Part shown: positions 4,467 to 22,408 of the stretch, piece after piece
How positions within the stretch are numbered: position 1 is the stretch's first letter
Layout of the letters: each line of letters begins with the position of its first letter
NCBI GenBank assembly: GCA_013178295.1
Contig: JABLWW010000011.1
Span: forward strand, 186,001-250,000
Length of the DNA stretch: 64,000 nucleotides
Source of the DNA: Anaerolineae bacterium
GTDB taxonomy: Bacteria > Chloroflexota > Anaerolineae > Anaerolineales > Anaerolineaceae
Direction of reading: 5' to 3'
Notes under the pieces: generated by a model
What the model was told of the DNA's origin: nothing
Databases searched by the model: none
What the model saw: only the letters and a program-made list of their open reading frames with translations
Translations under genes and position numbers: made by a program

Positions 4467-6476
4467 CTATTCTAGCAGCTCCGGACACAAATTTGAAATG
4501 ATGTACTCGATTCGTTTTTGAGAATGGCGCATCCATATAAATTGCTCACAGTAAGCGTGGCGGAAGTTCTGATCATCTCGCAGCCAGCTAGCGAGGACGT
4601 TAGCGTCATCAAAGCGCTGGGCGCGGGCATAAGCCACAAAAAAAGGCATCCATTCGGATGTGTCCTGCGGTTGCAATCCAGCGCGTAACACCTCATCGGC
4701 AAGACGCACCGCTTCCTGCCAGTCCTCTTTCTGCCGTGCCAGACTTGCCTTTTGATAATAATAACACCAATTGTGTTCGGGTTCTTGCCCAAAGATGATT
4801 TCGGGGGGCGTTTTTTGAGATTGATCTGTTTCAATCATGCTGATCTGAGATAGGGGGGCTACCAGCCGGACCAGTGCATCCTCGTCTGCTGACAATTCCA
4901 GCCATTCTCCGTCAATGACATGTAAGCAAGAGCCTGGTTGTGGAATGCTGACCAATAGGCTGTTTTTATAGTCGAGGATGTATTCGATGCGGCGCACGGA
5001 GCGCCCCAGATTCTCTTGCCGCTTCATTTCAAACAGCGTTTTCTGATTGAGAATTTCACCGGCGACCTGCGGCGAGGTTTCACGGGGGTAAAAAATCAGG
5101 TTGGCAGGCGCCCAAATTTCATAGCTTTCACCAAGACGATAACCCGGCGGCAACATGGCAAGCAGGGCGGTATTCTGTTTCAGGGTGGGCGCGCGCCAGA
5201 CAAGCTGCCACCACAATTGTTTTTGATATGTCCACAGGTCGCGGAAATAGGCGGTATTGTTGATATGGGTCATGATTGCAGCTGCCAGCAGCCCGCCAAG
5301 CAATATGTTTCGCGCTTTTGGCTTTAGGGTTTTGAAGATAAGCCCCATCCAGAAGAGGGCCGCACCGATGGTGGCGGGGAGAGTATAACGGTCAAAGGTA
5401 TTTTCAAATTGAACCTGACGATTGGAAAGCACTACGGGCAAAATTGCGCTCAGCGTTGCCAGTCCCCCCAGATACACAAGCGCTTTTGTGCTGGGGAGGC
5501 TTTCTTCGTTGCTCGCTTGCGAAGACTTGTGCCACCACTGCAAATATGCACTGAGACCCAAGATGCCGATCAGCGCCAGGCATAAGGAGAGCAACAGGTC
5601 TGTGTAACGGGCTGTGACGGTTGTGTTATATAAAGGGACGCCCCATGCCAGAAATATGGTATCAACAAAGCTCTTAAGTGTCTCGGCTGCCAGACGCAAG
5701 ATCATAAATCCTGGCTGGCTGAGATATTCGCGGCTCAGTGCGCCGATATCCGTAACAGAGCGGGCGCTTTTGAAAATGAAAACCCGCCAGAAGAGAAAAC
5801 CTATTAATGCAATCAGATTGGGCAGCCATTTTTTCAAGACTTGCGGGATGTTCGGTTTTGGTGGGGTGTTTTCCCTTCCATAGAACAGATACAAAAGCAG
5901 CAGCAGGCGCACGCCTTCCAGACCTACCATGTATTCCATCATCAGGAAGCAGACCATGGCGAAGAAAATACTCACTATGGTAAAGAGGATACGTTTGCGG
6001 AGCGACTCACACCGCGCTGCCAGGATGGTGAAGATCAGGGAGAGGATGCCTGAGAGAAATCCTGAAAAGTGACACTGATAGGCACTGGCAGTTGGCATTT
6101 GCAGAAAACCGGGATACACGAGGAACAGCATGGCAGAAAGCGCGGTAGCCAGACGCTGCCCTGGAAGGAGCAAACGCAGCAGCCACAAAAAAGCCAGCGC
6201 ACTGCCAAGACGCAGAGTGAAGATGTATAATTGCCACGCCAGCGGGTTATTACCCAGAAGCAGGTATGTAAGCCCATACACCAATCCCATGAATGGTCGG
6301 TCAATGACGTGCAGGTCAATGATTGCCTGCCAGCCGCGGGTTGTACCTGCCCAGATGACGTGCCAGTCATCGCGATAAAAACCAAGCTGCCCAATCAGGG
6401 GAAGGTAGGTAAGCCCCGCAATTAGGGATAGGAAGAAAATCGTAACAACTGTTTCGGAAAAAATAAATTTCTTCAA
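4467..6476 (-). CDS. Large 'DDW' membrane protein with TPR-like tail (paralogue of 20354-22408)
   Basis: A 669-residue protein. The first 420 residues hold about eleven membrane segments; the loop after the first contains FYRDDWHVIW, an acidic DDW motif placed like the catalytic Asp of PMT-type glycosyltransferases. A soluble C-terminal part of about 250 residues contains EPEHNWCYYYQKA, then WQEAVRLADEVL and SEWMPFFVAYA, a helical-repeat-like segment. The same blocks recur in the protein at 20354-22408, so the two define a family I cannot name. It is the first gene of the minus-strand glycan operon and lies back to back with the radical SAM gene. A membrane glycosyltransferase role is inference. 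Confidence 0.7.
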   Translation of the reverse strand: MKKFIFSETVVTIFFLSLIAGLTYLPLIGQLGFYRDDWHVIWAGTTRGWQAIIDLHVIDRPFMGLVYGLTYLLLGNNPLAWQLYIFTLRLGSALAFLWLLRLLLPGQRLATALSAMLFLVYPGFLQMPTASAYQCHFSGFLSGILSLIFTILAARCESLRKRILFTIVSIFFAMVCFLMMEYMVGLEGVRLLLLLYLFYGRENTPPKPNIPQVLKKWLPNLIALIGFLFWRVFIFKSARSVTDIGALSREYLSQPGFMILRLAAETLKSFVDTIFLAWGVPLYNTTVTARYTDLLLSLCLALIGILGLSAYLQWWHKSSQASNEESLPSTKALVYLGGLATLSAILPVVLSNRQVQFENTFDRYTLPATIGAALFWMGLIFKTLKPKARNILLGGLLAAAIMTHINNTAYFRDLWTYQKQLWWQLVWRAPTLKQNTALLAMLPPGYRLGESYEIWAPANLIFYPRETSPQVAGEILNQKTLFEMKRQENLGRSVRRIEYILDYKNSLLVSIPQPGSCLHVIDGEWLELSADEDALVRLVAPLSQISMIETDQSQKTPPEIIFGQEPEHNWCYYYQKASLARQKEDWQEAVRLADEVLRAGLQPQDTSEWMPFFVAYARAQRFDDANVLASWLRDDQNFRHAYCEQFIWMRHSQKRIEYIISNLCPELLE

Positions 6477-6528
6477 CGAAAATGATTTTATCCTGTTTGT
6501 GGCAGGTTTGTCTAGTTTGAAAATTGCC

Positions 6529-6558
6529 TTGACTCTATAAGAAAAAATGTTCTATAAT
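6529..6558 (+). promoter_or_regulatory. Promoter of the radical SAM gene (leaderless)
   Basis: TTGACT at 6529-6534, an 18-bp spacer and a perfect TATAAT at 6553-6558. The ATG at 6565 is only 6 nt past the -10 box, so the predicted transcript starts at or next to the start codon. No Shine-Dalgarno is present. Confidence 0.75.
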
Positions 6559-6564
6559 GTAGCT

Positions 6565-7734
6565 ATGAATGAACTGTTGAAATTGAAAGCGTTCTCGCCG
6601 TATGCGGTATATGAGCTAGACGGTGAGGCAAGCCTTTCTGTACACCCTGCCTGTGGACGCAATTCCAAAGGGCAACCTGATGAGACAACAGAACTGCCTG
6701 TAACGATGGTGACGTTACCTGGTGGCAAGCGCGTCCCGATGTTGAAATCAATGCTGACGTCAGTCTGTGAGAAGAACTGTTACTACTGCGCTTTTCGGTC
6801 GGGGCGTGATTTTCGCCGCCACAGTTTTCACCCTGAGGAACTGGCAAAAACCAGTCTGTTGCTGTTTGAGCGTGGTGTTGCCGAGGGGATATTTCTTTCT
6901 TCTGGTGTCGTAGGGGGTGGTGTGAAAACGCAAGACCGTCTTCTGGCTGCCGCCGATATTTTGCGCAATAAGTTAGGATATATGGGGTATCTTCACCTGA
7001 AGATTATGCCGGGCGCTGAGCCAGAGCAGGTTTTGCGCGCCATGCAGCTTGCTGATCGGGTATCCGTCAATCTTGAAGCTCCCAATATGCAGCGTCTTTC
7101 TGAACTGTGTCCTGAGAAAACCATGTTGGATCAGCTTGTTGCTCCCCTCCAATGGGTGGAGCGATACCGTCAGACCCAGCCCCGTCAGATGGGTTGGAAA
7201 GGGCGTTGGCCATCCAGCACAACGCAATTTGTGGTGGGCGGTGGTAAGGAGACAGACCAGGAACTTTTACACTCCTCTCAGTACCTTTTGCGCAACATGC
7301 ATCTGGCGCGGGTCTATTTTTCGGGTTTTAGCCCGATCCTCGATACGCCTTTTGAAGATAGGGCAGCGGTTAATCCCTGGCGGCAGAATCGATTGTATCA
7401 GGCTTCTTTTTTGTTGCGCGACTATGGTTTTGATTATGATGAACTGATGTTTGACCAGCAGGGAAACTTACCGCTTGAACTTGATCCCAAACAGGCTTGG
7501 GCCGAGGTACACCTGCGCCATGCGCCTGTGGAGGTTAATCGCGCTGACTACCCTGAACTGCTTCGTATCCCTGGCATTGGGCCACGCAGTGCAAAGCAGA
7601 TTGTTGCGCAGCGGTTGCGTGCCCCTTTGCGCAGCGAGGATGATCTTAAGCGGCTGGGTATTTGCATCCAGCGGGTTGCGCCTTATGTTCTTGTGAATGG
7701 CAGGCGGGTGCCGGTGCAACGGGCGCTGTTTTAA
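6565..7734 (+). CDS. Radical SAM protein with C-terminal helix-hairpin-helix (DNA modification/repair type)
   Basis: A 389-residue protein. Cys68-x3-Cys72-x2-Cys75 (in SVCEKNCYYCAF) is the 4Fe-4S/SAM motif. Near the C-terminus EVNRADYPELLRIPGIG is a helix-hairpin-helix of the ComEA/UvrC type that binds DNA backbone. This architecture matches the family named 'putative DNA modification/repair radical SAM protein' (TIGR03916). In many genomes that family is paired with a UDG-like partner; no such gene is next to it here, and a kinase-like gene follows instead. The start at 6565 is preferred over ATG 6547 because 6547 lies upstream of the -10 box. The reaction is unknown. Confidence 0.85.
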   Translation: MNELLKLKAFSPYAVYELDGEASLSVHPACGRNSKGQPDETTELPVTMVTLPGGKRVPMLKSMLTSVCEKNCYYCAFRSGRDFRRHSFHPEELAKTSLLLFERGVAEGIFLSSGVVGGGVKTQDRLLAAADILRNKLGYMGYLHLKIMPGAEPEQVLRAMQLADRVSVNLEAPNMQRLSELCPEKTMLDQLVAPLQWVERYRQTQPRQMGWKGRWPSSTTQFVVGGGKETDQELLHSSQYLLRNMHLARVYFSGFSPILDTPFEDRAAVNPWRQNRLYQASFLLRDYGFDYDELMFDQQGNLPLELDPKQAWAEVHLRHAPVEVNRADYPELLRIPGIGPRSAKQIVAQRLRAPLRSEDDLKRLGICIQRVAPYVLVNGRRVPVQRALF

Positions 7735-7747
7735 TTGCTGGCAAATG

Positions 7748-7756
7748 TGATATAGT
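7748..7756 (+). promoter_or_regulatory. Extended -10 promoter of the ABC1 kinase gene
   Basis: TGA-TATAGT (TG at 7748-7749, -10 at 7751-7756) ends 6 nt before ATG 7763. The -35 region is weak, as is usual with an extended -10. No Shine-Dalgarno precedes the ATG, so a leaderless mRNA is expected. Confidence 0.6.
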
Positions 7757-7762
7757 AAGATT

Positions 7763-9484
7763 ATGTTTGATATTCTCTCACCGCTGCGCAGCATCCGGCG
7801 CTTTCGCGATGTGCAGCTTGTTTTGTTGCGCTACGGTTTTGGTTTTCTTCTGAGTAATCAGGAAATCAGGGCGCTGCGCAGAACCTTGCGCCGAACACTG
7901 GGATGGGGGTATTCCATAGAGGAGACCGAATACGAAGAGAGAGCTGCCCCGGCCCGTATGCGCATGATGCTGCAGGAACTGGGTCCGACCTATATCAAAA
8001 TCGGGCAGCTGCTTGCCAGCCGCGGCGATATGCTGCCGGAAGAGTGGATCGCTGAGCTGGCAAAATTGCAGGATGATGTTCCTCCATTTGGGTATGAGCA
8101 AGCGCGGGAGGTTATCGAGGGCGAATTTGGAAAACCAATCGGCGATATTTTTTGGGAATTTGAACAGCAGCCTTTTGCGGCGGCTTCGATTGGTCAGGTG
8201 CACCGCGCCCGTTTGCTGGATATGACACCGGTTGTGGTCAAAGTGCGGAGACCGAATGTGGTTGAGCAGGTGCGCTCGGATATTGAGATTATCCGAGAGA
8301 TTGTTAAACTGGTGGAGGGGCGTATTGCCTGGGGGAAACGTTACGGGTTGGTGGCTGTTTTTGAAGAATTTGCCCGTGCCTTGACGCTTGAGCTGGATTA
8401 TCGTATTGAGGCGTCCAATGCAGACCGCCTGCGCAAACAAACCATGCTAGAGCCCAAAGTGCATATCCCGCGCATTTATTGGGAATTGACAACCGATAAA
8501 GTACTCACAATGGAAGCCATTGAGGGAATCAAGATTAATGATCTGGAAGCGCTGGACGCCGCCGGAATTGACCGCGCTGAGATGGCACGGGTTTTTATCC
8601 AGTGTTTGTTTAAGCAAATCCTGATAGACGGATTTTTTCACTCCGATCCGCATCCGGGCAATGTGATTGTCGAGCTTGGCAAACAGCGCCTGGTGATCCT
8701 GGACACGGGGCAGATGGGGAGATTGATGCCAGAACAGCTGGTGCAGCTGGGAGACCTCGTGCAGTCAGTGCTGCGCCGCGACAGCCGGGATGTGATGCGT
8801 ATCTTTCTTGAGATTGGGACGCCTTTCAAAAAGGTAGATGAGCCAGCCTTTCGGCGTTCATTGGATTTCATCATCAATCGTTATCTGGATGCATCTCTGG
8901 ATCGTATCAAGTTTTCAAACATGTTTGCCGAGATGCTTGGCTCTATTTATAAACATGGCGTCCGCCTGCCAAGTGAATTGACCTTGGCAATTAAAGCCAT
9001 TATCCAGGCAGAAGAGATTGCACGCACACTAGACCCATCCATCCAAATAGTTGAAGTTGTTGAGGGTATCTATCGCCAGATTATTCAAAAAATGCTTGAC
9101 CCTCGCTCGATGTTTGACTCCGTACGCGATGGGGTACGAGAGGCTCGGCGGTTGCGTGGTGTGTTGCCGCGGGCGTTGGAATCAATCCTCCGACAGCTTG
9201 AGAGTGGCTCGTTGACCGTCGCTATTCAGATTCCCGAATTTATCAGCATTGTTGCCTCGCTAATGATCATTGCCAACCGTCTGGTAACCGGGCTGATTAT
9301 CGTGGGGATGATGATTGGCTCAGCGTTGTTGATGAATATCACGGTTGTCAAAGGCTGGGGATTTCTTAAGTATATTGGCATGTTTGCCTTTATTCTGGCA
9401 ATGCTGTCCGGGTTTATCTTGATTTGGGATGTTTTGCTGGATATCTGGGAGAATCAGCGGCGCAAGAAGGGTCCCTTTTACTAG
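7763..9484 (+). CDS. ABC1/UbiB-family protein kinase-like protein
   Basis: A 573-residue protein with the UbiB/ADCK signature. The KxGQ motif is in YIKIGQLLASRGDMLP (about 73-88), the Ala-rich nucleotide loop in AAASIGQVH, the invariant Lys in VVVKVRRPN, and the metal-binding SDPHPGNV in the middle. Two hydrophobic helices close the protein (about residues 495-560), as in bacterial UbiB, so it is a membrane-anchored ATPase or kinase. In other bacteria UbiB supports ubiquinone synthesis or lipid-quinone handling; no quinone gene is close by. Its stop overlaps that of the convergent rhomboid gene inside CTAG at 9481-9484. Confidence 0.9.
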   Translation: MFDILSPLRSIRRFRDVQLVLLRYGFGFLLSNQEIRALRRTLRRTLGWGYSIEETEYEERAAPARMRMMLQELGPTYIKIGQLLASRGDMLPEEWIAELAKLQDDVPPFGYEQAREVIEGEFGKPIGDIFWEFEQQPFAAASIGQVHRARLLDMTPVVVKVRRPNVVEQVRSDIEIIREIVKLVEGRIAWGKRYGLVAVFEEFARALTLELDYRIEASNADRLRKQTMLEPKVHIPRIYWELTTDKVLTMEAIEGIKINDLEALDAAGIDRAEMARVFIQCLFKQILIDGFFHSDPHPGNVIVELGKQRLVILDTGQMGRLMPEQLVQLGDLVQSVLRRDSRDVMRIFLEIGTPFKKVDEPAFRRSLDFIINRYLDASLDRIKFSNMFAEMLGSIYKHGVRLPSELTLAIKAIIQAEEIARTLDPSIQIVEVVEGIYRQIIQKMLDPRSMFDSVRDGVREARRLRGVLPRALESILRQLESGSLTVAIQIPEFISIVASLMIIANRLVTGLIIVGMMIGSALLMNITVVKGWGFLKYIGMFAFILAMLSGFILIWDVLLDIWENQRRKKGPFY

Positions 9485-10311
9485 CGCAGAAATACTGAGA
9501 TGGTAAAGATGGCTACCTCAGCGATGGCAACCAGCCATGCACGGGTATTTTGCCGCGTGTCTTGCATCAGGTAGCCGCTTTGCGTTTGGATAACCTGATA
9601 TTGTGTGCCAGCGAACCATGCAAACCCTAGCCCGCCGATTAAACCCCCTAGATGTCCCCAATTGTCAATCCCGGGTGATAATCCAAAAAGCAGGTTGATG
9701 ACTACAATGCCGATCACGTTTGCCAGCATTGCGCGCGCCTGGCTGCCAAACAGAAAGCGGTTGGCGTATATGAAGATACCCTGTGCGGCAATCAGACCAA
9801 AAATTGCCGTGGAAGCCCCTAGTGAGGCTTTAGGTGAAAACAGGTATGAGAAGACATTGCCGCAAAAGGCTGCAACAAAGTAGAGCATGGCGAAACGCAG
9901 ATGCCCATAATGACGTTCCAATCCGCGCCCGATAACGAATAACGCATACATGTTGAAAGCCAGATGGGCAATAGAGCCGTGCAGCATAACAGGGGTCATC
10001 AGCCGCCAATATTCCCCCATCTGAATGTAAGGATTGACTTTCATTCCCAGCAGAGCCGGGTAGTCATAGCCTGTCAGAGACTCGCTGATTATCTGGATTG
10101 CAAACACGCAGATGGTGACAGCCAGCAAGGTATAGGTAATGATCGCTTTGCGCTGCGGCAGTTGTATCTGAATGACAGGCGCGGCTGGGGGTAAAAGAGG
10201 GGACTGACTGACCTGACCGACCTGGCTTGTATCCTTGCCCGTTTGGGATGATGTTTCAGGGGGAAGTGGCGGAATATTCTTATCATCAGGCGGTGCTGTG
10301 GGCAGGGTCAT
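9481..10311 (-). CDS. Rhomboid-family intramembrane serine protease
   Basis: A 276-residue protein. A Pro-rich cytoplasmic tail of about 55 residues precedes six to seven hydrophobic helices. The catalytic Ser is S167 in GASTAIFG and the catalytic His is H220 in DNWGHLGG, the GxSx and H pair of the family. GSIAHLAFNMYAL supplies the HxxxN motif of helix 2. Such proteases cleave membrane-spanning substrates within or near the bilayer. Its start overlaps the gmk stop by 4 nt, so the two are cotranscribed and probably translationally coupled. The substrate is unknown. Confidence 0.92.
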   Translation of the reverse strand: MTLPTAPPDDKNIPPLPPETSSQTGKDTSQVGQVSQSPLLPPAAPVIQIQLPQRKAIITYTLLAVTICVFAIQIISESLTGYDYPALLGMKVNPYIQMGEYWRLMTPVMLHGSIAHLAFNMYALFVIGRGLERHYGHLRFAMLYFVAAFCGNVFSYLFSPKASLGASTAIFGLIAAQGIFIYANRFLFGSQARAMLANVIGIVVINLLFGLSPGIDNWGHLGGLIGGLGFAWFAGTQYQVIQTQSGYLMQDTRQNTRAWLVAIAEVAIFTISVFLR

Positions 10312-10937
10312 TGTTTGAGGTTTCTGTCGTTAACGCGATGGTGCTCTGCATGAATGCACTCAATGATGGTGCTGACGGCTTCTTCCAGGCGATTTTGGGC
10401 GTTAATGACAATATAGTCAAATTCTTTTAAACGCTTGAGTTCAGACCTGGCAGTATCCAAACGCAGCTGGAGCGTTTCGGGGGTCTCGGTGTTGCGTTGT
10501 TGCAGACGCAACAGCCATTCCTCGTCGTTTGCAGGGATCAGGAAGATCAATACTGAAGAATTGGGAAACAAGCTGCGCACTTTGGCAGCCCCCTGCACGT
10601 CTAAACGCAGGATGACATCCTTGCCGCTGGCTAAAGCCTGTTCCACCTGTGATCTGGGCACGCCTTTGAGATCATTGTACACCTGGGCGTACTCAATCAG
10701 TGCATCCTTTTGGATCATCTCTTCGAATTCTTCATGGGAGACGAAGAAGTAGTCCACGCCTTCGATCTCACCTGGGCGCGGGGGACGGGTGGTAGCGGTA
10801 ACCACAAAGTGAAAAGGTAGTTGGCGCTGTTTGAGGGATTTCAGCACGGCATCTTTGCCAACACCGGAGGGCCCTGAAATGACAATCACCAGCGGTTGTG
10901 GCTCAAAGATATCGAATGTCAGTGATTCCTGAGACAT
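10308..10937 (-). CDS. gmk: Guanylate kinase
   Basis: A 209-residue protein phosphorylating GMP or dGMP to the diphosphate with ATP. The Walker A loop is SGPSGVGKDAV (about 21-31), and the GMP-binding part shows TTRPPRPGEIEGVDYFF with the conserved Arg, Glu and Tyr. VILRLDVQGA matches the Walker B strand. Length is normal for the family. An ATTATAAT at 10973-10980, itself palindromic, can serve as -10 for this gene and for the divergent FmdB gene. The rhomboid gene follows with a 4-nt overlap. Confidence 0.95.
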   Translation of the reverse strand: MSQESLTFDIFEPQPLVIVISGPSGVGKDAVLKSLKQRQLPFHFVVTATTRPPRPGEIEGVDYFFVSHEEFEEMIQKDALIEYAQVYNDLKGVPRSQVEQALASGKDVILRLDVQGAAKVRSLFPNSSVLIFLIPANDEEWLLRLQQRNTETPETLQLRLDTARSELKRLKEFDYIVINAQNRLEEAVSTIIECIHAEHHRVNDRNLKQ

Positions 10938-11017
10938 ATAGTACTCTGCAAGAATTTCGTCTCGAGAATTTGATTATAATAGAGATTGCTTGAATTAAGT
11001 GTTTTCGAGGGTTAGAA

Positions 11018-11413
11018 ATGCCTACGTACGACTTTCGCTGTCTGGATTGTCATAAGCCTTTTGATGTTTACCTCTCTTATGCAGAATATGGCAAAAAACC
11101 GGTGATATGCCCGCATTGTCGCAGCCAGAACGTGATGCGCAAAATTGGACGCGTGCGTTTTGCGCGTTCTGAGGAAAGTCGCCTGGAGGATATGGCGGAT
11201 GTGGGTGATCTGGAAGGGCTGGAGAATGACCCGCGCGCGATGGGCAGGATGATGCGCAAGATGAGTGCCGAACTTGGCGAGGATATTGGTCCAGAATTCA
11301 ACGAGGTAGTGGATCGTCTGGAAAGAGGGCAAAGCCCAGAGGAGATTGAAAAGGCGTTGCCCGATCTTGGATCGGATAGCGGCTTTGGGGGCGGGCTGGA
11401 CGAGATGATGTGA
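11018..11413 (+). CDS. FmdB-family zinc ribbon protein
   Basis: A 131-residue protein. The N-terminal 45 residues carry MPTYDFRCLDC and a second CPHC pair, the FmdB/CxxC-CxxC zinc ribbon. The rest is an acidic, Met-rich, probably helical tail with AMGRMMRKMSAELGED and a Gly-rich end. FmdB proteins were named as regulators near formamidase genes, but most members are small uncharacterised zinc proteins. It is a single-gene unit divergent from gmk. TATAAT at 10975-10980 is a possible -10, and GAGGG at 11007-11011 may serve as Shine-Dalgarno. Confidence 0.85.
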   Translation: MPTYDFRCLDCHKPFDVYLSYAEYGKKPVICPHCRSQNVMRKIGRVRFARSEESRLEDMADVGDLEGLENDPRAMGRMMRKMSAELGEDIGPEFNEVVDRLERGQSPEEIEKALPDLGSDSGFGGGLDEMM

Positions 11414-11459
11414 TCTGCATCGTGAGCGGGAAAACCGGGTAGAGGCGTTTGCGTTTTGC

Positions 11460-12740
11460 TTATTGCGCCTGGATGGCGCGTTGCAGCTGCTCGAAAGAGG
11501 TCATCCAGGAAATTCTGTTGACAAATTCTGCCAGCGTGCGGCTCTGTTGGCGCAGGGCACGCACTGCCGGCCCCACCGGGTCGGCACCGGCTTCACCGCC
11601 GGGAACATCGGCGTATGCCCCATGAAAAGCAAAATATGCCTGATTGAGGCGGCGAATCTGGTAACCGTTTTCCCAGAACATCTTACGCCGCATTTCCATG
11701 TAAGTTTCAGCTGCCTCGATTTTGCCCTCAGCCAGAAGCGCATCAACGCGGACGCGGGTTTCATGCATCTCTGCTCGAAAATCAAAAGCTGCAGGCAGGT
11801 TTTGTGCAGGCTCTGGCGGCGCATTGCCTTGCTCTATGGGAGGAACTGGTGGTGGCGGAGGTAAAAATTCGGGATAAAATCTCTTTAGCATAGCCTGTCC
11901 GATTTCTTTGCCTGCGATGGATGCTGTTGTTTCGTTCATCGTGCGCAGTTCTGGACTGACTTCGTACGAGATGCCAAGTGGGCGCAGCGTCAAGTAGTTG
12001 TGTATCCATTCGTGAGCGATCGTTTCTGTGAACCAGAATAGGTCACTGGAGCGCATCACCATTGTGGGGTAAACACCCACACCCCCAATGCCGACAACCA
12101 ATGCAGAGACATTCAGCCCTTTTTCAACCTCCTGCTCCAGCTTGATGATGCTTTCCAGGGGCATGTCTGGGTTTAACGAGATGTTTGCTTCCTGACGGAT
12201 GACTTCGCGCGGGGAGATAATCAGCCCATCGGGCAGCGGCGTGGCGTGGTATAGCAATGGCGGGAGGCTTTGCCCGCCAAGCGTAAATCCCAGTTCTGCT
12301 AAGGTGGCGTTCATTTGCTGTTGCAGGATGGCTTCGCATAAAGGTATCATCTGGTTGAGAGTTTCCCGCAGGCGGTCGCGTTCTGCCCGCAGGGCGGCGG
12401 CGCTTGCGTCGGGGTCGTTGATGCTTGGATCGGTGTACATGCGGTCAATTTCTGCCTCAATTTGCCCCAGCCTGGAAACCATTTGCAAATATGTCTTGAC
12501 AATTTCAGTCTGTCTGCCAGTGTCCAAATAATGTTGGTCACCAAGCGCTGCTTGACCCAGTTTGATATAGAATGCATCAATGCTCCAGGTGATATAATCA
12601 AACTCTATGGAACGGGTATATGCCCGCACGCGCTCAATCTTATCACCGGGAGGCAGAACACTTCTTCCTAGAAGCAATAGACAGAGGAAAAAATATAAAG
12701 TTCTGTTGAAAGAAAACTTCGCATGCTGGTATGTACCCAT
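11460..12740 (-). CDS. Putative exported HExxH metalloprotein
   Basis: A protein of about 426 residues that I do not recognise as a named family. A basic then hydrophobic N-terminus (about 8-25) looks like a signal peptide or membrane anchor. The middle has ETIAHEWIHNYL, an HExxH zinc-protease motif, followed some 25 residues later by MNETTASIAGKEIG, where the Glu could be the third ligand as in gluzincins. A Pro-rich stretch (PPPPPVPP) and a helical tail follow. ATG 12740 is preferred over the in-frame TTG at 12752, which lies inside the likely -10 box (TATAAT, minus strand, 12757-12752). The proteolytic function is inferred, not shown. Confidence 0.65.
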   Translation of the reverse strand: MGTYQHAKFSFNRTLYFFLCLLLLGRSVLPPGDKIERVRAYTRSIEFDYITWSIDAFYIKLGQAALGDQHYLDTGRQTEIVKTYLQMVSRLGQIEAEIDRMYTDPSINDPDASAAALRAERDRLRETLNQMIPLCEAILQQQMNATLAELGFTLGGQSLPPLLYHATPLPDGLIISPREVIRQEANISLNPDMPLESIIKLEQEVEKGLNVSALVVGIGGVGVYPTMVMRSSDLFWFTETIAHEWIHNYLTLRPLGISYEVSPELRTMNETTASIAGKEIGQAMLKRFYPEFLPPPPPVPPIEQGNAPPEPAQNLPAAFDFRAEMHETRVRVDALLAEGKIEAAETYMEMRRKMFWENGYQIRRLNQAYFAFHGAYADVPGGEAGADPVGPAVRALRQQSRTLAEFVNRISWMTSFEQLQRAIQAQ

Positions 12741-12763
12741 AATTTGAGGCAATTATACCCTTC

Positions 12764-12792: not shown

Positions 12793-12803
12793 CGAGAGCC
12801 GAT

Positions 12804-14207: not shown

Positions 14208-14215
14208 GAAATTCG

Positions 14216-14899: not shown

Positions 14900-16122
14900 G
14901 TTTGGATCAGGCTGTTCTGGAGGCGCTTGAAAGTCTGAGCGCTAATAAGCTGCGCTCGGCGTTGACGATATTGGGAATTGTGATTGGCGTGGCGGCGGTT
15001 GTTGCCATGCTGGCAGTGGGGCAGGGTGCCCAGGATACCATCACGGGTTCGATTAGCGGTATTGGGGTGAATCTGCTGTTTGTTTTTCAGGGGAACAACC
15101 GCGAGGAGGTGCGCAACCCAAGACCGCTGACCCTGGCTGACACGCAGGCGCTGAATGACCCGTTCAGCGCGCCGCATATCATGAATGTGGCACCAGTGAT
15201 TGATAACAATCTGCTGATTTCCTTTGGCGGCGAGCAATTGCGCGCCAATGTCAGCGGGGTAACGCCAGCCTATCAGGAAGTGCGCAGCTGGGGGGTAAGC
15301 GAGGGCGAATTTATCAACGAGGAGCACATTTTGGGGAAGGCTTCGGTAGCGTTAGTTGGGGTAGATGTTGCTGACAAGCTTTTTGGGCGGCGCGAAGCGC
15401 TGGTTGGAGAAACGATTCGCATTGAGGGACAGCCTTTTCGAGTGATTGGTGTGTTGCTACCTAAGGGGGGTGGTTCGTTTGGTAGCCAGGACGAGGTTGT
15501 GTTGGTGCCGTTTAGCACTGCCCAGAGCAGGCTGATACGCCGCAACCGCGACAATGTGGATGTGGTGTTTATCCAGGCAATCAATGCCGAGGCGGTAGAA
15601 CAGGCGAAAGAGGAAATCACTGCTATCCTGCGCCAGCGGCACCGGATTATCTTGGGTCCAGACGATTTCACCATCTTTTCTCAGCAAGATTTTGTTGAGA
15701 CTGCCCAGACAATTACTGGGGTGTTTACCATTTTTCTGGGGGGCATTGCCGCTATTTCGTTGCTTGTGGGCGGTATCGGGATTATGAACATTATGCTGGT
15801 TTCAGTAACCGAGCGCACGCGGGAAATTGGGCTGCGCAAAGCGGTTGGTGCGCGCAAACGCGATATTCTCATTCAGTTTCTAACGGAGTCATCTCTATTA
15901 AGCTTGATGGGCGGGGTGATTGGTATTGGTTTCGGCTGGCTGATTGCGTTTATTGTGGGGCGGATTGCTGCGGCGAATAACACGCCTTTCACTCCGGTAG
16001 TCAGTGTTCAAGCCATCCTGCTGGCGACGCTTTTCTCAACGGCGGTTGGGTTGTTCTTTGGGATTTATCCGGCAAATCGCGCTGCAAATCTTGCCCCGGT
16101 CGAAGCGCTTCGTTCGGAGTGA
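14896..16122 (+). CDS. MacB-like ABC transporter permease (FtsX domain)
   Basis: A 408-residue permease. The first helix follows [18 protein letters not shown] (about 14-31), a large extracytoplasmic MacB-type domain fills about 50-270, and three C-terminal helices form the FtsX domain with [28 protein letters not shown]-type coupling sequence (positions 15769-15855). Together with the two preceding genes it forms a probable exporter of peptides, lipids or toxic compounds. The start overlaps the ATPase stop by 4 nt. Substrate unknown. Confidence 0.94.
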
Positions 16123-16133
16123 GTGCAAAAGGA

Positions 16134-16142
16134 TGGTAGAAT
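16134..16142 (+). promoter_or_regulatory. Extended -10 promoter before the flippase-like gene
   Basis: TGG-TAGAAT (16134-16142) lies just after the permease stop, and ATG 16150 follows after 7 nt. No Shine-Dalgarno precedes the ATG. An independent leaderless transcript is likely besides read-through from the exporter operon. Confidence 0.55.
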
Positions 16143-16149
16143 TTTCCCT

Positions 16150-17139
16150 ATGAAGCGCTGGCAATTCTGGCTTGGATTGGTGATCAGCGCGCTCCTCCTG
16201 TTTTTTGCTCTGCGGGGTCTCAAGCTGGATGAAGCCTGGCAGGCGCTGAGGGGTGCTCAATATCTGTGGCTGCTGCCCGGTGTGGCAGTCTATTTTGTTG
16301 GAGTGTGGGTGCGCGCCTGGCGCTGGCATTATTTGCTGCGTCCGCTTAAGAAAATCCCGACTCGAACGATGTTTCCCATTGTTACGATTGGCTATATGGG
16401 CAATAATATCTATCCAGCGCGCGCGGGTGAGGTGCTGCGAGCTGTCATTCTCAAACGGCGTGAAGGGGTGCCTGTTTCCGCTTCGCTGGCGACTGTGATC
16501 GTGGAACGTGTCTTTGACGGCGTGGTCATGCTGGCGTTTGTTTTCTTGAATCTGCCGCATCTGGCAACTCTGACAGTCGATTCGGGTTTTGTGGGCAGCA
16601 TACAAGATTTGGCATTGTGGGGGGCGCTGGCTTTTATTGGCGCGCTGATCCTCTTCTTGCTGGCAGCGATGTTTCCGCGTGTTACCGAACGGCTGGCGAA
16701 CCTTGTGATAGACCGTCTTATTCCTCTGGGCGGGCGCGAGAAAGTACGCAGTGTTGCGCTGCGTTTTTTGACTGGGCTGGAGTCGCTGCGTTCGCCGCAG
16801 GAAGCGTTGATGGTTTTTGTTACCACCGCGTTTATCTGGCTGTTGGAAACCGCCAAGTACTGGTTTGTGATGCACGCTTTTCCCTTTGAGGTCAGTTTTT
16901 TTGCTCTGATGTTGATGAATGGCATTGTCAATCTTGCCACGACATTGCCATCAGCACCGGGCTATATTGGCACCTTCGATGCTCCCGGCATTGCATTGCT
17001 GATGGCTTATGGTGTTTCACAGGGAGTGGCAGCCAGCTATACGCTGGTATTGCATGTGGCACTGTGGTTGCCAATTACACTGTTGGGTATATATTACTTT
17101 GCCCGTGAAGGGATGAAATGGGGAGGGAAGCTGGAATGA
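16150..17139 (+). CDS. Lysylphosphatidylglycerol-synthase TM-region/UPF0104 membrane protein
   Basis: A 329-residue integral membrane protein with about eight helices and no soluble catalytic domain. It shows family blocks such as WRWHYLLRPL, GYMGNNIYPARAGEVLRA (about 77-94) and the late SAPGYIGTFDAPG. Proteins with this LPG-synthase TM region flip or move aminoacyl-lipids when fused to a transferase, while stand-alone members are called flippase-like and often lie near glycolipid genes. ATG 16150 is chosen because it follows the -10 box; the upstream in-frame codons overlap that box. Its stop overlaps the next start (ATGA). Confidence 0.86.
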   Translation: MKRWQFWLGLVISALLLFFALRGLKLDEAWQALRGAQYLWLLPGVAVYFVGVWVRAWRWHYLLRPLKKIPTRTMFPIVTIGYMGNNIYPARAGEVLRAVILKRREGVPVSASLATVIVERVFDGVVMLAFVFLNLPHLATLTVDSGFVGSIQDLALWGALAFIGALILFLLAAMFPRVTERLANLVIDRLIPLGGREKVRSVALRFLTGLESLRSPQEALMVFVTTAFIWLLETAKYWFVMHAFPFEVSFFALMLMNGIVNLATTLPSAPGYIGTFDAPGIALLMAYGVSQGVAASYTLVLHVALWLPITLLGIYYFAREGMKWGGKLE

Positions 17140-18425
17140 AAATAGCTGTTATTGGCGCTGGCATTGGGGGAATGGCTGCCGCTTTTGATCTGCAGCGCGC
17201 AGGACATGCGGTAACTGTGTTTGAGTTTTCGGATTATGTGGGCGGGCTTGCCTCGGGGTTTAAGGAGCCGCACTGGGACTGGTCGGTGGAAAAGTACTAC
17301 CACCACTGGTTTACCAGCGACAGGGATATGTTTGCTTTGCTGAACGAACTGGGGCTTGCGGACAGGGTGGTTGTCCGCCGTCCGAAAACGGTGATGTATC
17401 ACCAGGGGCGGTTTTACCCACTAGACTCTCCACTGGCTGCGTTGACCTTTCCTGGTTTTACCTTTGCTGATATGGTGCGCTTTGGACTGGTGACAGTTTA
17501 TTTGCGCTATCTTTCGTCCTGGCAGCCTTTGGAAAAATACACAGCCCACGAGTGGATGTGCCGTTATTATGGTCAGAGGCTCTATCAGGTGCATTTTGAG
17601 CCGTTGCTGATGGGCAAGTTTGGTCAATATTACCGCGATGTCACCATGGCGTGGTTTTGGGCGCGTTTTAAGGCGCGCACGACCAAACTAGCGACATTTG
17701 AGGGAGGATTTCAGGCTTTTGCCGATATGTTTGCCGAGAGGTTGAGGAATCTCAGAGTGGGGATTCGTTTGGGTGAGGCTGTGCAATCAATTACGCCGTT
17801 TTCGGAGGGCGGTTTGCTGCTCCGACATGGGGCGGGCGATGAACATTTTGACCGCTGTCTGGTGACGGTTTCTCCTGCTATTCTGGCGCGCTTGGCGCCT
17901 CAGCTTCCGCCCGCTTATCTAAAAGGGTTACTGGATTTGAAGAGCATGGGGGCGGTGGTGCTGGTGCTGGCGCTGCGCTGTCGGCTTTCGCGGCAGGGGT
18001 ATTACTGGTACAACTTGCCCAAGTCAGCTGGTTATCCATTTCTGGCGCTGGTGGAACACACGAACTTTGTCTCTCCGGAGCATTTTGGCGGCGAGCATAT
18101 TGTGTACTGTGGTGATTATCTGGATGCGAGCCATGAGTACTTTGACCTTTCGCATGAGCAACTCCTGGAACGCTTTCTGCCTGCCCTGAAGCGTTTGAAC
18201 GCCGATTTCTCGCCAAGTTGGGTGCGTAAGAGCTGGTTGTTTCGCACGCCGTATGCGCAACCTGTGCCGCTGGTTAATCATTCCCGCAATATCCCTGCAT
18301 TGCGTACGCCGATTGCCGGACTGTATTTTGCTAGCATGAGTCAGGTGTACCCATGGGATCGTGGCACAAACTTTGCGGTGCAGGTTGGACGCCATGCAGC
18401 CCGCATGATGCTTGCTGAGGGTTGA
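17136..18425 (+). CDS. NAD(P)/FAD-dependent oxidoreductase (protoporphyrinogen-oxidase-like)
   Basis: A 429-residue flavoprotein. Residues 1-40 form the dinucleotide-binding fold with GAGIGGMAAAFDL and the Glu of FEFSDYVGG. The sequence continues as in amine-oxidase/HemY/UDP-galactopyranose-mutase relatives, and PWDRGTNFAVQVG near the end contacts FAD in this superfamily. Members near glycan genes often act on isoprenoid or sugar-lipid substrates; the coupling to the flippase-like gene (4-nt overlap) suggests a lipid role, which is inference. GGGAGGGAAG ahead of ATG 17136 is a good Shine-Dalgarno, so the longer start at 17118 is not needed. Confidence 0.86.
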   Translation: MKIAVIGAGIGGMAAAFDLQRAGHAVTVFEFSDYVGGLASGFKEPHWDWSVEKYYHHWFTSDRDMFALLNELGLADRVVVRRPKTVMYHQGRFYPLDSPLAALTFPGFTFADMVRFGLVTVYLRYLSSWQPLEKYTAHEWMCRYYGQRLYQVHFEPLLMGKFGQYYRDVTMAWFWARFKARTTKLATFEGGFQAFADMFAERLRNLRVGIRLGEAVQSITPFSEGGLLLRHGAGDEHFDRCLVTVSPAILARLAPQLPPAYLKGLLDLKSMGAVVLVLALRCRLSRQGYYWYNLPKSAGYPFLALVEHTNFVSPEHFGGEHIVYCGDYLDASHEYFDLSHEQLLERFLPALKRLNADFSPSWVRKSWLFRTPYAQPVPLVNHSRNIPALRTPIAGLYFASMSQVYPWDRGTNFAVQVGRHAARMMLAEG

Positions 18426-18596
18426 TTCCAGTTTTGGCGCGTTTGGTGTTTTTGTTGGCTGGATTAGTTGGTTAACAAAATTTAGGATTTAACAATTCTA
18501 TGCGAAATCATGTGAATTTTTTTTGACTGATTGCCGAAGATATTGTGTGTAATGCTTCTTAATGGGGTATATGTGGGGGTTTTGTGGGTGGGTATA

Positions 18597-18638
18597 AATG
18601 TTAAAAAAAGTTGATTTTTCAGAGTTTTTCTTAACATT
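18597..18638. repeat. AT-rich inverted repeat upstream of dnaA
   Basis: AATGTTAA at 18597-18604 pairs with TTAACATT at 18631-18638; inside, A-runs and T-runs extend the pairing after one mismatch. It could be an unwinding element, a protein-binding site or a hairpin in RNA. It is not a normal terminator, because it lies 170 bp past the last stop. Confidence 0.6.
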
Positions 18639-18687
18639 TTCTGTCTTAAAAAATTGCGTTTTTTTAGGGGAGCGTAGGGTAAGCGGC

Positions 18688-18716
18688 TTGTTTGTCGCTA
18701 GATTATCTGCTAGAAT
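18688..18716 (+). promoter_or_regulatory. Probable dnaA promoter
   Basis: TTGTTT at 18688-18693, a 17-bp spacer and TAGAAT at 18711-18716. It would give a dnaA leader of about 190 nt that includes the GNRA-capped hairpin at 18859-18876. Confidence 0.5.
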
Positions 18717-18858
18717 AACGCTTGGATGATGAAGCGCTGTCGAAGCCACTTGTCCGCCAATCTTTCCTGTAGTTTTTGTAATCATTTCGTATAAAGTATT
18801 TGCTTCTGCCGTTTGACGAGAGGAGGATATTTCTTTGTCTCGGAAAGCGGGTGTATAT

Positions 18859-18876
18859 CCCCTTTGGAAAAAGGGG
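18859..18876 (+). promoter_or_regulatory. dnaA: GNRA-tetraloop hairpin in the dnaA leader
   Basis: CCCCTTT (18859-18865), the tetraloop GGAA and AAAGGGG (18870-18876) form a perfect 7-bp stem. The Shine-Dalgarno GGAGGT begins 21 nt later at 18898. The tetraloop obeys GNRA, so it should be very stable in RNA and could affect ribosome access or mRNA life. Confidence 0.6.
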
Positions 18877-18912
18877 CGTGGATAAACTTTGTCTCATGGA
18901 GGTGCCCGAGCT

Positions 18913-20274
18913 ATGAATCCACAACAAGCCTGGCAAGCGACACTTGGACAACTGCAAATGGAAATGTCAAAAGCATCCTTTGACACCTGGGTGCGCAGTT
19001 CGGAACTGGTCTCTTACGATCAGGGGATATTTACCATTGGCGTTCAGAACGCTTATGCCCGCGATTGGCTTGAAGATCGCCTTTCCAGTACAGTTTCTAA
19101 CTTGTTGACTGGCTTTATGGATTCGCCTCAGAGGGTGAAATTTGTTGTCTGGCATGGAGAGTATGAGAGCGGTGAACCTGAACGGCAGGCGCGCGAGGTT
19201 AGCCCCTTTGCTGTGATGGTCAACAACAGCCAACCGCCCTCGATTAATCCGCGTTATACGTTTGATAATTTTGTGGTAGGTAACAGCAACCGTCTGGCAC
19301 ACGCCGCCTGCATGGCGGTGGGGGAACTGGCGGTGACGGAAAACCCGGCGCGTTCTTACAACCCGCTTTTTGTCTATAGCGGGGTTGGTTTGGGAAAAAC
19401 CCATTTGTTGCATGCTATTGGCAATGCGGTGGCGCAGCGCGGACTGCGTGTGCTGTATGTCTCGTCCGAAGAGTTTGCCAATGACCTGATCAAGTCTATT
19501 CAGACGCGCACTACAGCGGCTTTTCGCGATCGCTACCGGCTGACAGATGTCTTGCTGATTGATGATATTCAATTTTTCATCGGCAAAGAAGCCACCCTGG
19601 AGGAGTTCTTTCACACGTTCAACACCCTATATGGGCAGAACAAGCAGATTGTCATTTCTTCGGACCGCCCGCCCAAAGCGATGGCGACGCTTGAAGAACG
19701 TCTGCGTTCACGTTTTGAATGGGGGTTGCAGGTGGATATCCAGCCCCCCGATCTGGAAACCCGTATTGCCATTCTGCGTTGCAAGGCGGAGCAGTGTCAG
19801 CGGAACGTCCCAGACGACATTATGCGCGTGATTGCTCACCGCATCCAGACCAACATCCGCGAACTGGAGGGCGCACTGACACGTGTCCTGGCGTATGCCG
19901 ACCTGAGCGGTCAGCCGCTTAGCCAGGAACTGGTGCAGATTGCTCTGGCAGACCTGCTGCCCAACCGCGACCACATTGAGCCTTCGCAGGTGGTCAAAAC
20001 TGTTGCCAGGGCATTCAACGTGGATTCGGATAAGCTGCTGGGGCGCGACCGCTCGGCGAATATTGCTCTGCCGCGCCATGTTGCCATGTATCTACTGCGC
20101 GAGGATGCCAATATCTCGCTGCCGCAGATTGGCGAGGCGCTTGGCGGGCGCGACCACACCACGGTGATGCACGCCTGCGATAAGGTTGCTGACCTGATCG
20201 AGCGCGATGATGCGCTGCGTCGGCAGATTATCAAGATACGAGAACAATTGTACGGCACGCCGCTCGCAGCATAG
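18913..20274 (+). CDS. dnaA: Chromosomal replication initiator protein DnaA
   Basis: A 453-residue AAA+ initiator. Domain I (helical, MNPQQAWQATLGQLQ start) is followed by a short linker and domain III with TFDNFVVGNSNRLAHAA, Walker A GVGLGKTHLL and Walker B LLIDDIQF. Domain IV has the DnaA signature GGRDHTTVMHACDK, which contacts DnaA boxes. All domains have family length. ATG 18913 is favoured by GGAGGT nine nt upstream; ATG 18889 lies before that site. Unlike the common dnaA-dnaN-recF arrangement, dnaN does not follow, and recF is 26 kb away beside def. Confidence 0.98.
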   Translation: MNPQQAWQATLGQLQMEMSKASFDTWVRSSELVSYDQGIFTIGVQNAYARDWLEDRLSSTVSNLLTGFMDSPQRVKFVVWHGEYESGEPERQAREVSPFAVMVNNSQPPSINPRYTFDNFVVGNSNRLAHAACMAVGELAVTENPARSYNPLFVYSGVGLGKTHLLHAIGNAVAQRGLRVLYVSSEEFANDLIKSIQTRTTAAFRDRYRLTDVLLIDDIQFFIGKEATLEEFFHTFNTLYGQNKQIVISSDRPPKAMATLEERLRSRFEWGLQVDIQPPDLETRIAILRCKAEQCQRNVPDDIMRVIAHRIQTNIRELEGALTRVLAYADLSGQPLSQELVQIALADLLPNRDHIEPSQVVKTVARAFNVDSDKLLGRDRSANIALPRHVAMYLLREDANISLPQIGEALGGRDHTTVMHACDKVADLIERDDALRRQIIKIREQLYGTPLAA

Positions 20275-20316
20275 CAGCCTGGTATATTGGTTAAATTGGA
20301 GGGTTCTGCCCTATCC

Positions 20317-20345
20317 TTGACCAGTTGCGCCAACCGCGTTAACAT
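20317..20345 (+). promoter_or_regulatory. Promoter of the second DDW membrane protein gene
   Basis: TTGACC at 20317-20322, a 17-bp spacer and TAACAT at 20340-20345. ATG 20354 follows after 8 nt with no Shine-Dalgarno, again a leaderless arrangement. Confidence 0.6.
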
Positions 20346-20353
20346 CAGTTGAT

Positions 20354-22408
20354 ATGCTAACAACCCGCCATGGCACTTTTTCTCTATGGCTGCCCCCGCT
20401 GGTGCTTTTGGCACTTTGTGTTCTCAGCTTTGGTTTGCTGATCCCGTATCTGGGGTATTATTTTGACGATTGGCCCAAGATGCTGGTGGGGCGTTTTTGG
20501 GGGCTTGGAGGGTATTGGGCGTACTATGCTGGCGACCGCCCATTGTCCTCGTGGACGCACATTGTTTTCATCCCCATTTTGGGGTATAAACCTGTTGCCT
20601 GGCATGTTTTCACCCTGTTGCTGCGCTGGCTGACCTCTGTTGGGGTGTGGTGGTGGCTGCGCCATCTGTGGCCTGGGCGCAATTTACAGGCATTTTTGAC
20701 GGCAGCGGTTTTTTCGGTGTACCCGTTTTTCACTCAGCAAGCTATCCCGGTAACATACTTCCAGCAATGGCTGCAATACGCGCTTTTTGTGTTTGCTATG
20801 GGTGCCATGGTGCAGTCGGTGCGCCAACCACGCCGCTTTTTGTTATGGGGCGGGTTGTCGCTCGCTGCCAGCCTGGTGCAGCTTACCATCACCGAGTATT
20901 TTGCCGTGCTGGAGTTTTTGCGGTTGCCGATATTGTGGTTTCTGCTGGGTCAGGACGGGGGCGCTTTGCGCCAGCGCTTCACCCGCACGCTGCGGCTTTG
21001 GCTGCCCTATCTGGTGCTCATTCTGGCTTTTCTGCTCTGGCGGTTGCTGCTCATGCGCTTTCCGGGTGATGAAGACCCTTATCGTCCTGGGCTGCTCTAT
21101 TCCCTTCCGCATGACCCAGCAGTGTTAGTGAAATTGGCGCGAATTGTGGGCGTTGATACGTTGTATGTCCTGGTTACTCACTGGTCGCGTGTCATTGAGC
21201 TGGGACTCAGCCCTGTCCCGTCGCCTTTTGTTCTCTTTTCGTGGGGAGTGGGTTTGTTCTCGGCGCTGCTGATGATAGCGTATCTGCTACGGGGAGGAGC
21301 GGATGGTGACGAGGATCGCCCGGCACCGACGCAATGGGTATGGCAGGCGCTGGTGCTGGGGTTGCTGGCGTTTGCCTTTGGCTGCGCCCCAGCGTGGCTT
21401 TCAGAGCGTGTGGTGATTGAAGGCTACCGCTCTGACCGCTATGCTTTGCCTGCACTTGTGGGTGCCTCGCTCTTGACCACTGCATTGATTGATTGCGCTG
21501 TCCAGCGACGGGTGCAAAAGGCGGCGGTATTCAGTTTGCTACTGGGATTGTCCATCGCTTTTAATTTTCAGATCGGCAATCATTACCGCTGGCAGAACCT
21601 CTATCAAAATCGCTTTTTCTGGCAGCTTTACTGGCGGGCGCCCTACATTGAACCTGGGACGGCTATTCTCATGGAAAAGGATGTTTTCCCTGATTTGGGG
21701 CTTTTCTCGCTTTCGGCGGCGGTCAATCTGATTTACCCTCCGCCGCAGGAGGAGGAACGGCTGTCTTACTGGGTGTACACCCTGTTACCCAAGTACGCTG
21801 GTCAGTTGCCTGATCCAAATAATATTGCCTTCTTTACCCACTTTCGCTCGCTGGTTTTTGAGGGTAGCACGCCACAGACGCTGTTAATGCACTATGACCC
21901 TGAAAGAGCTAACTGCTGGTGGATGCTCAGTCCGCAGGATGATGTAAACCCGTATCTTCCATCTTTAGTAAAGGGGATGCTTGTGGCTTCTCATCTGGAA
22001 CGTATACTTCCGGCGCCGGTCAGCGCTGATTATCCCCCAACGGATTTGTTTGGCAGGGAACCTGAGCACGGCTGGTGCTATTATTATCAGAAAGCTGACC
22101 TGGCGCGGCAGACTGGCGACTGGCAAAAAGCAGCCGCGCTAGCAGATCAGGCGCTATTGGCCGGTTATGCGCCGCAAAGTACAGGCTCCAATTCTCCGCA
22201 CGAGTGGATGCCATTCATTGAAGCGTATGCTCATATTGGCGATTGGGAAAAGGCGCGCATCCTGACATTGAGCTGCTATGAAGTTGACAGGGAATATGGC
22301 AACGCTTTTTGTAACCTGTGGAGTCGCATTAGCAACGAAACAGCGGAGAATGAAGCAAAAGCCGAGAATCGCGAGCAGGTCTTGTCTGTACTGGGTTGCT
22401 CGAATTGA
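20354..22408 (+). CDS. Large 'DDW' membrane protein with TPR-like tail (paralogue of 4467-6476)
   Basis: A 684-residue protein with about eleven membrane segments in the first 420 residues. The loop after the first contains YYFDDWPKMLVG, the same acidic motif as in its paralogue. The soluble tail has EPEHGWCYYYQKADLA, WQKAAALADQALLAGY and HEWMPFIEAYAHIG, like a short TPR array, and ends in a variable Glu-rich segment. It is a stand-alone gene after dnaA, convergent with the lipoprotein gene (stops 2 nt apart). A membrane glycosyltransferase role is possible from topology but unproven. Confidence 0.7.
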   Translation: MLTTRHGTFSLWLPPLVLLALCVLSFGLLIPYLGYYFDDWPKMLVGRFWGLGGYWAYYAGDRPLSSWTHIVFIPILGYKPVAWHVFTLLLRWLTSVGVWWWLRHLWPGRNLQAFLTAAVFSVYPFFTQQAIPVTYFQQWLQYALFVFAMGAMVQSVRQPRRFLLWGGLSLAASLVQLTITEYFAVLEFLRLPILWFLLGQDGGALRQRFTRTLRLWLPYLVLILAFLLWRLLLMRFPGDEDPYRPGLLYSLPHDPAVLVKLARIVGVDTLYVLVTHWSRVIELGLSPVPSPFVLFSWGVGLFSALLMIAYLLRGGADGDEDRPAPTQWVWQALVLGLLAFAFGCAPAWLSERVVIEGYRSDRYALPALVGASLLTTALIDCAVQRRVQKAAVFSLLLGLSIAFNFQIGNHYRWQNLYQNRFFWQLYWRAPYIEPGTAILMEKDVFPDLGLFSLSAAVNLIYPPPQEEERLSYWVYTLLPKYAGQLPDPNNIAFFTHFRSLVFEGSTPQTLLMHYDPERANCWWMLSPQDDVNPYLPSLVKGMLVASHLERILPAPVSADYPPTDLFGREPEHGWCYYYQKADLARQTGDWQKAAALADQALLAGYAPQSTGSNSPHEWMPFIEAYAHIGDWEKARILTLSCYEVDREYGNAFCNLWSRISNETAENEAKAENREQVLSVLGCSN

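Follow-up and report, generated by a model that had tools for sequence, protein, structure and literature searches.

A family of Anaerolineales membrane proteins with a GT-C fold, a conserved acidic motif and a short TPR-like tail, read as candidate extracytoplasmic sugar transferases

We examined two genes in a 64,000-nucleotide stretch of DNA from an Anaerolineae bacterium (assembly GCA_013178295.1, contig JABLWW010000011.1, positions 186,001 to 250,000; the whole stretch is termed the window), each of which encodes a member of one family of membrane proteins: member 1 (20354..22408, plus strand; 684 amino acids) and member 2 (4467..6476, minus strand; 669 amino acids, TTG start; the plus-strand reading of 4467-6476 holds 16 stops). 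In the reading that we favour, with a probability of about 0.75, the family members are extracytoplasmic GT-C transferases that use a polyprenyl-phosphate sugar and employ a tetratricopeptide repeat (TPR)-like tail for the acceptor, in a build like that of the TMTC enzymes. A preliminary description, made from the letters of the window, had grouped the two proteins as a shared membrane protein family, and they do align nearly full length (664 columns, 30% identity, 176 bits, E 3e-51, in a single comparison). That description had also treated the family as a pair of paralogues; this was too narrow, as a genome search found ten copies in the window's genome, the other nine being 29-48% identical to the member 1 protein.

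Fold and conserved residues of the membrane part

The structure test covers the member 1 protein; the member 2 protein is represented as a row in the family alignment of 74 sequences (72 of the 80 relatives' loci were used, eight being dropped by eye as cut or frame-broken). The AlphaFold2 model of member 1 prepared from these 74 sequences had a pLDDT of 94.0 and a pTM of 0.93, and its helices place the GT-C membrane part at residues 13-428 (20390..21637). When the model was compared with solved structures by VIA-align, Z was 18.6 for yeast STT3 (5.0 A over 391 residues), 17.5 for AglB, 16.5 for PglB, 16.2 for Pmt4 and 15.4 for ArnT; the comparison with PMT, ArnT and AglB, toward which the preliminary description had pointed, thus gives the membrane part a GT-C fold in the model. 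By title, 45 of the 50 structures listed (Z 18.6-8.7) are glycosyltransferases or oligosaccharyltransferase complexes; the remaining five are four GPI transamidase chains and one translocon complex, all of which we take to be GT-C-fold subunits. The structural matches to GT-C enzymes span residue 1 or 2 to about residue 547. Eleven Kyte-Doolittle peaks were counted in each of the two proteins, in line with the "about eleven" membrane segments claimed earlier, but this is a soft count because the member 1 peak at 444-462 lies after the last long membrane helix of the model.

Profile comparison by hhalign, in which all relatives compared were Chloroflexota proteins, suggests that PMT_2 (PF13231) is no closer to the membrane part than TMTC-type GT-C proteins are, the margin in favour of the latter being modest. 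Against a set of 13 TMTC-like proteins (10 of 12 loci, L138 and L141 being cut, together with L099, L101 and L103) the family scored 98.6% (E 1e-15, columns 16-447). Four rows of this set (L099, L101, L103 and L132) had been found through the family itself; with these removed 97.3% remained (E 2.3e-11), and selection bias was rejected as the cause of the match. Removal of L130 as well left 92.6%. The L130 protein, encoded in the genome of a different Chloroflexota bacterium, combines an above-cut-off PMT_2 match with a TPR array, which is the TMTC architecture, and gave 88.2% alone (E 3e-6). The label "TMTC-like" for most rows of the set refers to their similarity to L099 and L130, because few have Pfam matches: among five other rows scanned, four had none and one had a weak PMT_2 match, and among L099, L101 and L103 only L099 had a weak PMT_2 match. 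The corresponding score against 11 PMT_2 proteins of the window's own genome (11 of 22 matches used; L110 dropped for a cut frame) was 94% (E 1.4e-7, columns 62-231). The earlier statement that the topology resembles GT39 enzymes accordingly stands for the GT-C fold, with the profile being at least as close to the TMTC type (97.3-98.6%) as to PMT_2. Fourteen unrelated polytopic families reached at most 1.2%; these control families hold 2 to 4 rows each, picked from mechanical open reading frames, and because of these limits reversed test alignments were added, which gave 0.6% and 1.1%. On both kinds of control, the idea that hydrophobicity produced the profile match was rejected.

Six residues, D38, R62, R362, Q424, W427 and R428 (member 1 numbering), are invariant in all 74 family members, and D39 (70/74), P63 (73/74) and E181 (73/74) nearly so. 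The DDW motif, located in the first outer loop (residues 38-40, 20465..20473, in member 1; residues 36-38, 6363..6371 on the minus strand, in member 2), is present whole in 69 of 74 members, its first D in 74, its second D in 70 and its W in 72, and the earlier claim of an acidic catalytic-type motif in this loop is upheld by these counts. Member 2 retains D38, R62, E181 and R362. The partners of D38 and R62 in the 13 TMTC-like proteins are D in 11 and R in 11, respectively, and those of D39 and P63 are D and P in all 13. As judged from this alignment, in which it meets the DD of the TMTC-like proteins, the DDW sits where GT-C enzymes carry their catalytic Asp. According to the published TMTC study (PMC7801869), the TMTC DD is the aligned counterpart of D55/E56 in ArnT and of D77/E78 in Pmt1, and all of these share the first Asp; the study ties the DD, RP, E and R motifs to acceptor, metal and donor-phosphate binding, with a late-loop Arg touching the donor phosphate.

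The tail and its cysteines

The preliminary description had considered the tail unlike that of known members. This did not hold: on profile and structure searches, residues 563-684 of member 1 (22040..22405) form a predicted short TPR-like domain of about three hairpins. A profile search matched designed PPR proteins (E 2.3e-11), and Pfam TPR matches were seen below cut-off only. The fold searches used a single-sequence model of residues 428-684, of which only the tail was good, residues 1-142 of the model being unreliable (pLDDT <50); the structures listed by both Foldseek and VIA were mostly TPR structures (VIA: Z 8.7-10.6, root-mean-square deviation 2.6-5.3 A, Nup120 in the first row). Since the tail is TPR-like, the two sequence blocks described earlier, EPEHxWCYYYQKA and EWMPFxxAYA, are each the first helix of a hairpin (hairpin 1 and hairpin 2, respectively). 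The first block is EPEHGWCYYYQKA in member 1 (residues 569-581, 22058..22096; placed by model and alignment) and EPEHNWCYYYQKA in member 2 (residues 565-577, 4746..4784, minus strand; placed by sequence and pairwise alignment). As family signatures the blocks stood in part: the core WC-x3-[QE][KR]A is found in 74/74 members, while the preceding E-P-E-H is kept in 60, 54, 24 and 48 of the 74, respectively, and within EWMPF only the E is near-invariant (73/74).

The cysteines C521, C575, C653 and C682 occur together in 70/74 members, the other four lacking exactly C653 and C682, and in 69 of the 74 these are the only cysteines beyond residue 430. This pattern suggests disulfides C521-C575 and C653-C682, and the predicted disulfides suggest in turn that the tail is extracytoplasmic.

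A GT2-coupled branch, the proposed reaction and its alternatives

Gene neighbourhoods were compared in 87 loci (L011-L097, the loci of both window copies being excluded), 85 of which contain at least one family gene (92 such genes altogether). Genes of one GT2 glycosyltransferase cluster are present in 24 of these 85 loci and are the immediate same-strand neighbour in 20, downstream in 15 and upstream in 5. The 15 loci with a downstream GT2 gene also hold a WbqC-cluster gene (10 loci), a methyltransferase-like gene (10 loci) and a same-strand DegT gene (13 loci). A run of family GT-C, ArnC-like GT2, WbqC, methyltransferase-like and WecE genes was observed at L016:5364-10944 and in L044, L047, L050, L057, L066, L067, L071 and L089; the L044 run is without WecE, and the contig ends there. 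The DegT proteins tested (L016, L066 and L077) scored over cut-off with the WecE model, i.e., dTDP-4-amino-4,6-dideoxygalactose transaminase (for example 562.7 bits vs a cut-off of 375), and at 206-233 bits with the ArnB model (cut-off 631); the L016 protein matched a solved WecE-type structure with E 2.9e-125. The L066 GT2 protein matched ArnC structures (E 1.5e-47) and the GtrB-type sll0501 (E 1.1e-43). The WbqC name comes from one member of the cluster (L016, PF08889 over cut-off); in L077 its place is taken by a WecD-like acetyltransferase (101 bits vs a cut-off of 219), which suggests that WbqC modifies the 4-amino group.

Of the four ArnC-like GT2 genes that come closest in the window's own genome, two lie next to family members (contigs C9 and C2), where about 0.02 such pairs would be expected by chance (an estimate for about 3,600 genes; the query was itself among these neighbouring genes). 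In a FastTree tree with 82 rows, the 12 downstream-GT2 rows needed 3 changes vs 11.4 when shuffled, and the 5 upstream rows 2 vs 4.9, a clustering that relatedness alone can cause; the downstream-GT2 loci L042, L054 and L071 lie outside the tree.

We propose that, on the outer side of the membrane, the membrane part draws a sugar from its polyprenyl-phosphate carrier, the DD conserved in the first outer loop serving as the acidic/metal site, and that the extracytoplasmic TPR-like tail, probably held by disulfides, probably binds the acceptor, candidates being a surface protein and a glycan of the cell wall; within one genome the paralogues probably differ in the sugar or acceptor that they serve. 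The data establish the homology, the fold, the conserved site, the TPR-like tail and the gene coupling, from which catalysis, donor, sugar, acceptor, disulfides and a specialisation of the copies are inferred. One branch would work in the manner of arnB-arnC-arnT: the WecE-type aminotransferase would make a 4-amino-4,6-dideoxy sugar nucleotide, WbqC (or the WecD-like acetyltransferase) and the methyltransferase-like protein would modify it, the ArnC-like GT2 would load the modified sugar onto undecaprenyl phosphate, and the family member would transfer the sugar. As the coupling to ArnC-, WecE- and WbqC-like genes predicts a sugar for this branch, the branch is directly testable; the prediction is not transferable to the window copies, because they have no such coupling. 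A bolder version, which we think improbable, is an Anaerolineales-specific, multi-enzyme, TMTC-type glycosylation of surface proteins, in which each of up to a dozen disulfide-clamped, TPR-tailed transferases would have its own protein acceptor and one branch would add an N-modified 4-amino-4,6-dideoxyhexose. If true, the O-mannosylation by animal TMTC enzymes would have a bacterial counterpart that uses other sugars.

The nearest known systems are the animal O-mannosyltransferases TMTC1-4 and prokaryotic GT-C/TPR proteins. The likeness, as these are described in PMC7801869, lies in the GT-C part, the DD and RP of the first loop, the later Glu, the late Arg and an outer or lumenal TPR tail; prokaryotic proteins with transferase and TPR parts were already noted there, so that the architecture itself is known. 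The family differs from TMTC in having about three hairpins rather than about ten TPRs, in its conserved cysteines and in lacking the M4 Lys and a DUF1736 match (a scan of the ten members of the window's genome listed six Pfam families at E up to 0.1, PF08409 not being one of them), and its likeness was measured on Chloroflexota TMTC-like proteins. With ArnT and the arn operon it shares the fold and, in one branch, an ArnC-like GT2 gene and a DegT aminotransferase gene in the same run, but it has a TPR-like tail and the branch aminotransferase is WecE, not ArnB. PMT_2/GT39 shares the fold and a weak profile similarity, yet none of the ten members of the window's genome scored over the PMT_2 cut-off, and none of them, scanned individually, listed PMT_2 at E up to 0.1; by genome search one paralogue (C17:64587) reached 21.5 bits (cut-off 26.1). 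Besides its ten family members the window's genome holds 14 PMT_2 matches over cut-off.

Several results weigh against the assignment as TMTC-like transferases. In the TMTC-like set the partner of E181 is E in only 7/13 and that of R362 is R in only 8/13. The Lys of the TMTC/ArnT motif M4 (KE(T/Q)xxT), which precedes the conserved Glu, is present in 0/74 members, and this is a real difference. A Foldseek search of the PDB listed STT3, ArnT and DPY19 in its first six rows, but their TM-scores were low (0.29-0.38); only two rows fell under E 0.001, and transporters appeared from rank 7 on. No curated family model was reached by family members in Pfam or PHROGs, and NCBIfam, searched with the two window proteins, gave no match for either at E up to 10. 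For the tail, the model used in the fold searches had a mean pLDDT of 54.5, the best Foldseek E was 1.2e-3 with none under 0.001, and the Z values are modest for helical repeats. The four members that lack C653 and C682 form one clade, so that the paired loss is possibly one event and is not proof of pairing. Of the three GT2 proteins tested, those of L016 and L066 come closest to ArnC and that of L015 to PgfS, all far below cut-off, and the methyltransferase name comes from one member that scored below the Pfam cut-off. GT2 coupling is limited to one part of the tree and is seen for neither window copy, and reading eight operons by eye revealed no flippase, with no search aimed at one.

The alternative that fares best differs from the transferase reading above only in the acceptor and in the role of the tail: the same class of enzyme would modify a cell-wall or capsular polysaccharide with side chains, in the manner of Gtr/GT136, and the tail would hold a complex together. 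We regard this as a serious contender, though somewhat short of an even chance. The coupling to an ArnC/GtrB-like GT2 resembles the three-component systems as presented in PMC11127046, where a GT-C protein is coupled with a lipid-sugar synthase, and member 2 sits among other glycan genes; the GT136/Gtr proteins described there, however, carry a carbohydrate-binding module where the family has a TPR-like tail, and no flippase was recognised by eye beside the family. TPR tails are known in the protein-modifying TMTC enzymes (PMC7801869), and no Wzx/Wzy-like gene was recognised by eye, or searched for, in the seven loci of the window's genome that were listed; both points weigh against this alternative. 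It is improbable that the family members are catalytically dead GT-C relatives, acting as scaffolds, lipid-sugar flippases or polymerases: the missing M4 Lys would fit such a role, as would member 2, which occupies the longest branch of the family tree (2.22) and deviates at D268, W348 and Y219, positions kept in most members, but the retention of D38, R62 and R362 in 74/74 members and of E181 in 73/74, member 2 included, is unlike the pattern of a dead site. Least probable of all is an oligosaccharyltransferase that moves a glycan en bloc, for although STT3, AglB and PglB gave Z values slightly above those of Pmt4 and ArnT, the WWD signature of the STT3/PglB/AglB family, which lies in its outer domain, is found in 0/74 members and the partner GT2 proteins are similar to enzymes that load just one sugar.

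The transferase reading proposes a fold and a testable reaction for a large Anaerolineales-type paralogue family, with up to 12 matches per genome; to our knowledge the surface chemistry of these bacteria has been little studied. A bacterial GT-C protein with a small TPR tail, held by predicted disulfides, would also be a handy model for the TMTC enzymes.

Extent of the family and surroundings of the window genes

Family matches were found in 43 of 61 genomes of relatives (the window's own genome included, and most from the same taxonomic family), one of them weak (G029, 6.8e-9); at least 5 matches were found in 18 of the 61, with a maximum of 12, counts which are possibly inflated by fragmented genomes. 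In a phylum-wide search of 301 genomes, in which scoring was limited to three candidates for each genome, 33 genomes gave a match, 23 of them of the same order. Nine of the ten matches outside the order were weak (E 3e-10 or worse), and the strong one (G074, outside the class) comes from a fragmented genome (84% complete, 320 contigs) and may reflect a binning error. Of the proteins that gave the weak matches, eight were read and are GT-C-like by eye; among these only L099 nears a Pfam GT-C model (PMT_2, 25.7 vs 26.1 bits). The best 80 of 527 relatives in a species-level genome collection comprised 79 labelled Chloroflexota and 1 unlabelled, and a plasmid search with one window protein gave no match. 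The claim that this is a family of its own stands, as no full-length match to a named family was found in the curated collections given above; membership in a curated family was rejected, and stray matches (e.g., Lactate_perm and DUF6223, in one member each) were taken as noise. No description of the family (cysteine pattern, short tail, expansion, operon) was found in the open-licence literature searched. A tandem pair of family members is flanked by carbamoyltransferase-like genes, beside which stands a carbamate-kinase-like gene (L014:7396-14498; named by eye). Further membrane proteins that are GT-C-like by eye, L098 and L100, come from Chloroflexota outside the window's class; they have no Pfam GT-C match and each adjoins a gene that is glycosyltransferase-like by eye.

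Member 2 was said to lead a glycan operon, and it does head a closely spaced gene run on the minus strand. A short-chain dehydrogenase (SDR) gene (3644..4408; PF13561) begins 58 nucleotides downstream of it and is followed by genes for an MptE-like protein (2820..3626; PF01973, 43.2 bits vs a cut-off of 34.6), a GT2 glycosyltransferase (1843..2820; PF00535) and a PMT_2 GT-C protein (360..1853; Pfam), all on the minus strand. A second and a third PMT_2 gene and a GT2-like gene, the last named by eye, continue the run beyond the window (contig C3, L107). The three PMT_2 genes stand in tandem (window 360-1853 and L107:11296-15854), the first being 40% and 35% identical to the others.

Member 1 lies 79 nucleotides after dnaA (18889..20274, plus strand), as described earlier; the next gene is on the opposite strand, and no recognised glycan partner adjoins it. 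The adjacency carries no signal: dnaA was near a family gene in 1/97 loci, that one being the window's own locus (the flanks available reached about 9 kb but shrank to almost nothing where a contig ended), and a link between the family and dnaA was rejected on this count. Divergent from the member 2 gene, at 6547-7734 of the window, lies a gene for a radical SAM protein with a helix-hairpin-helix domain.

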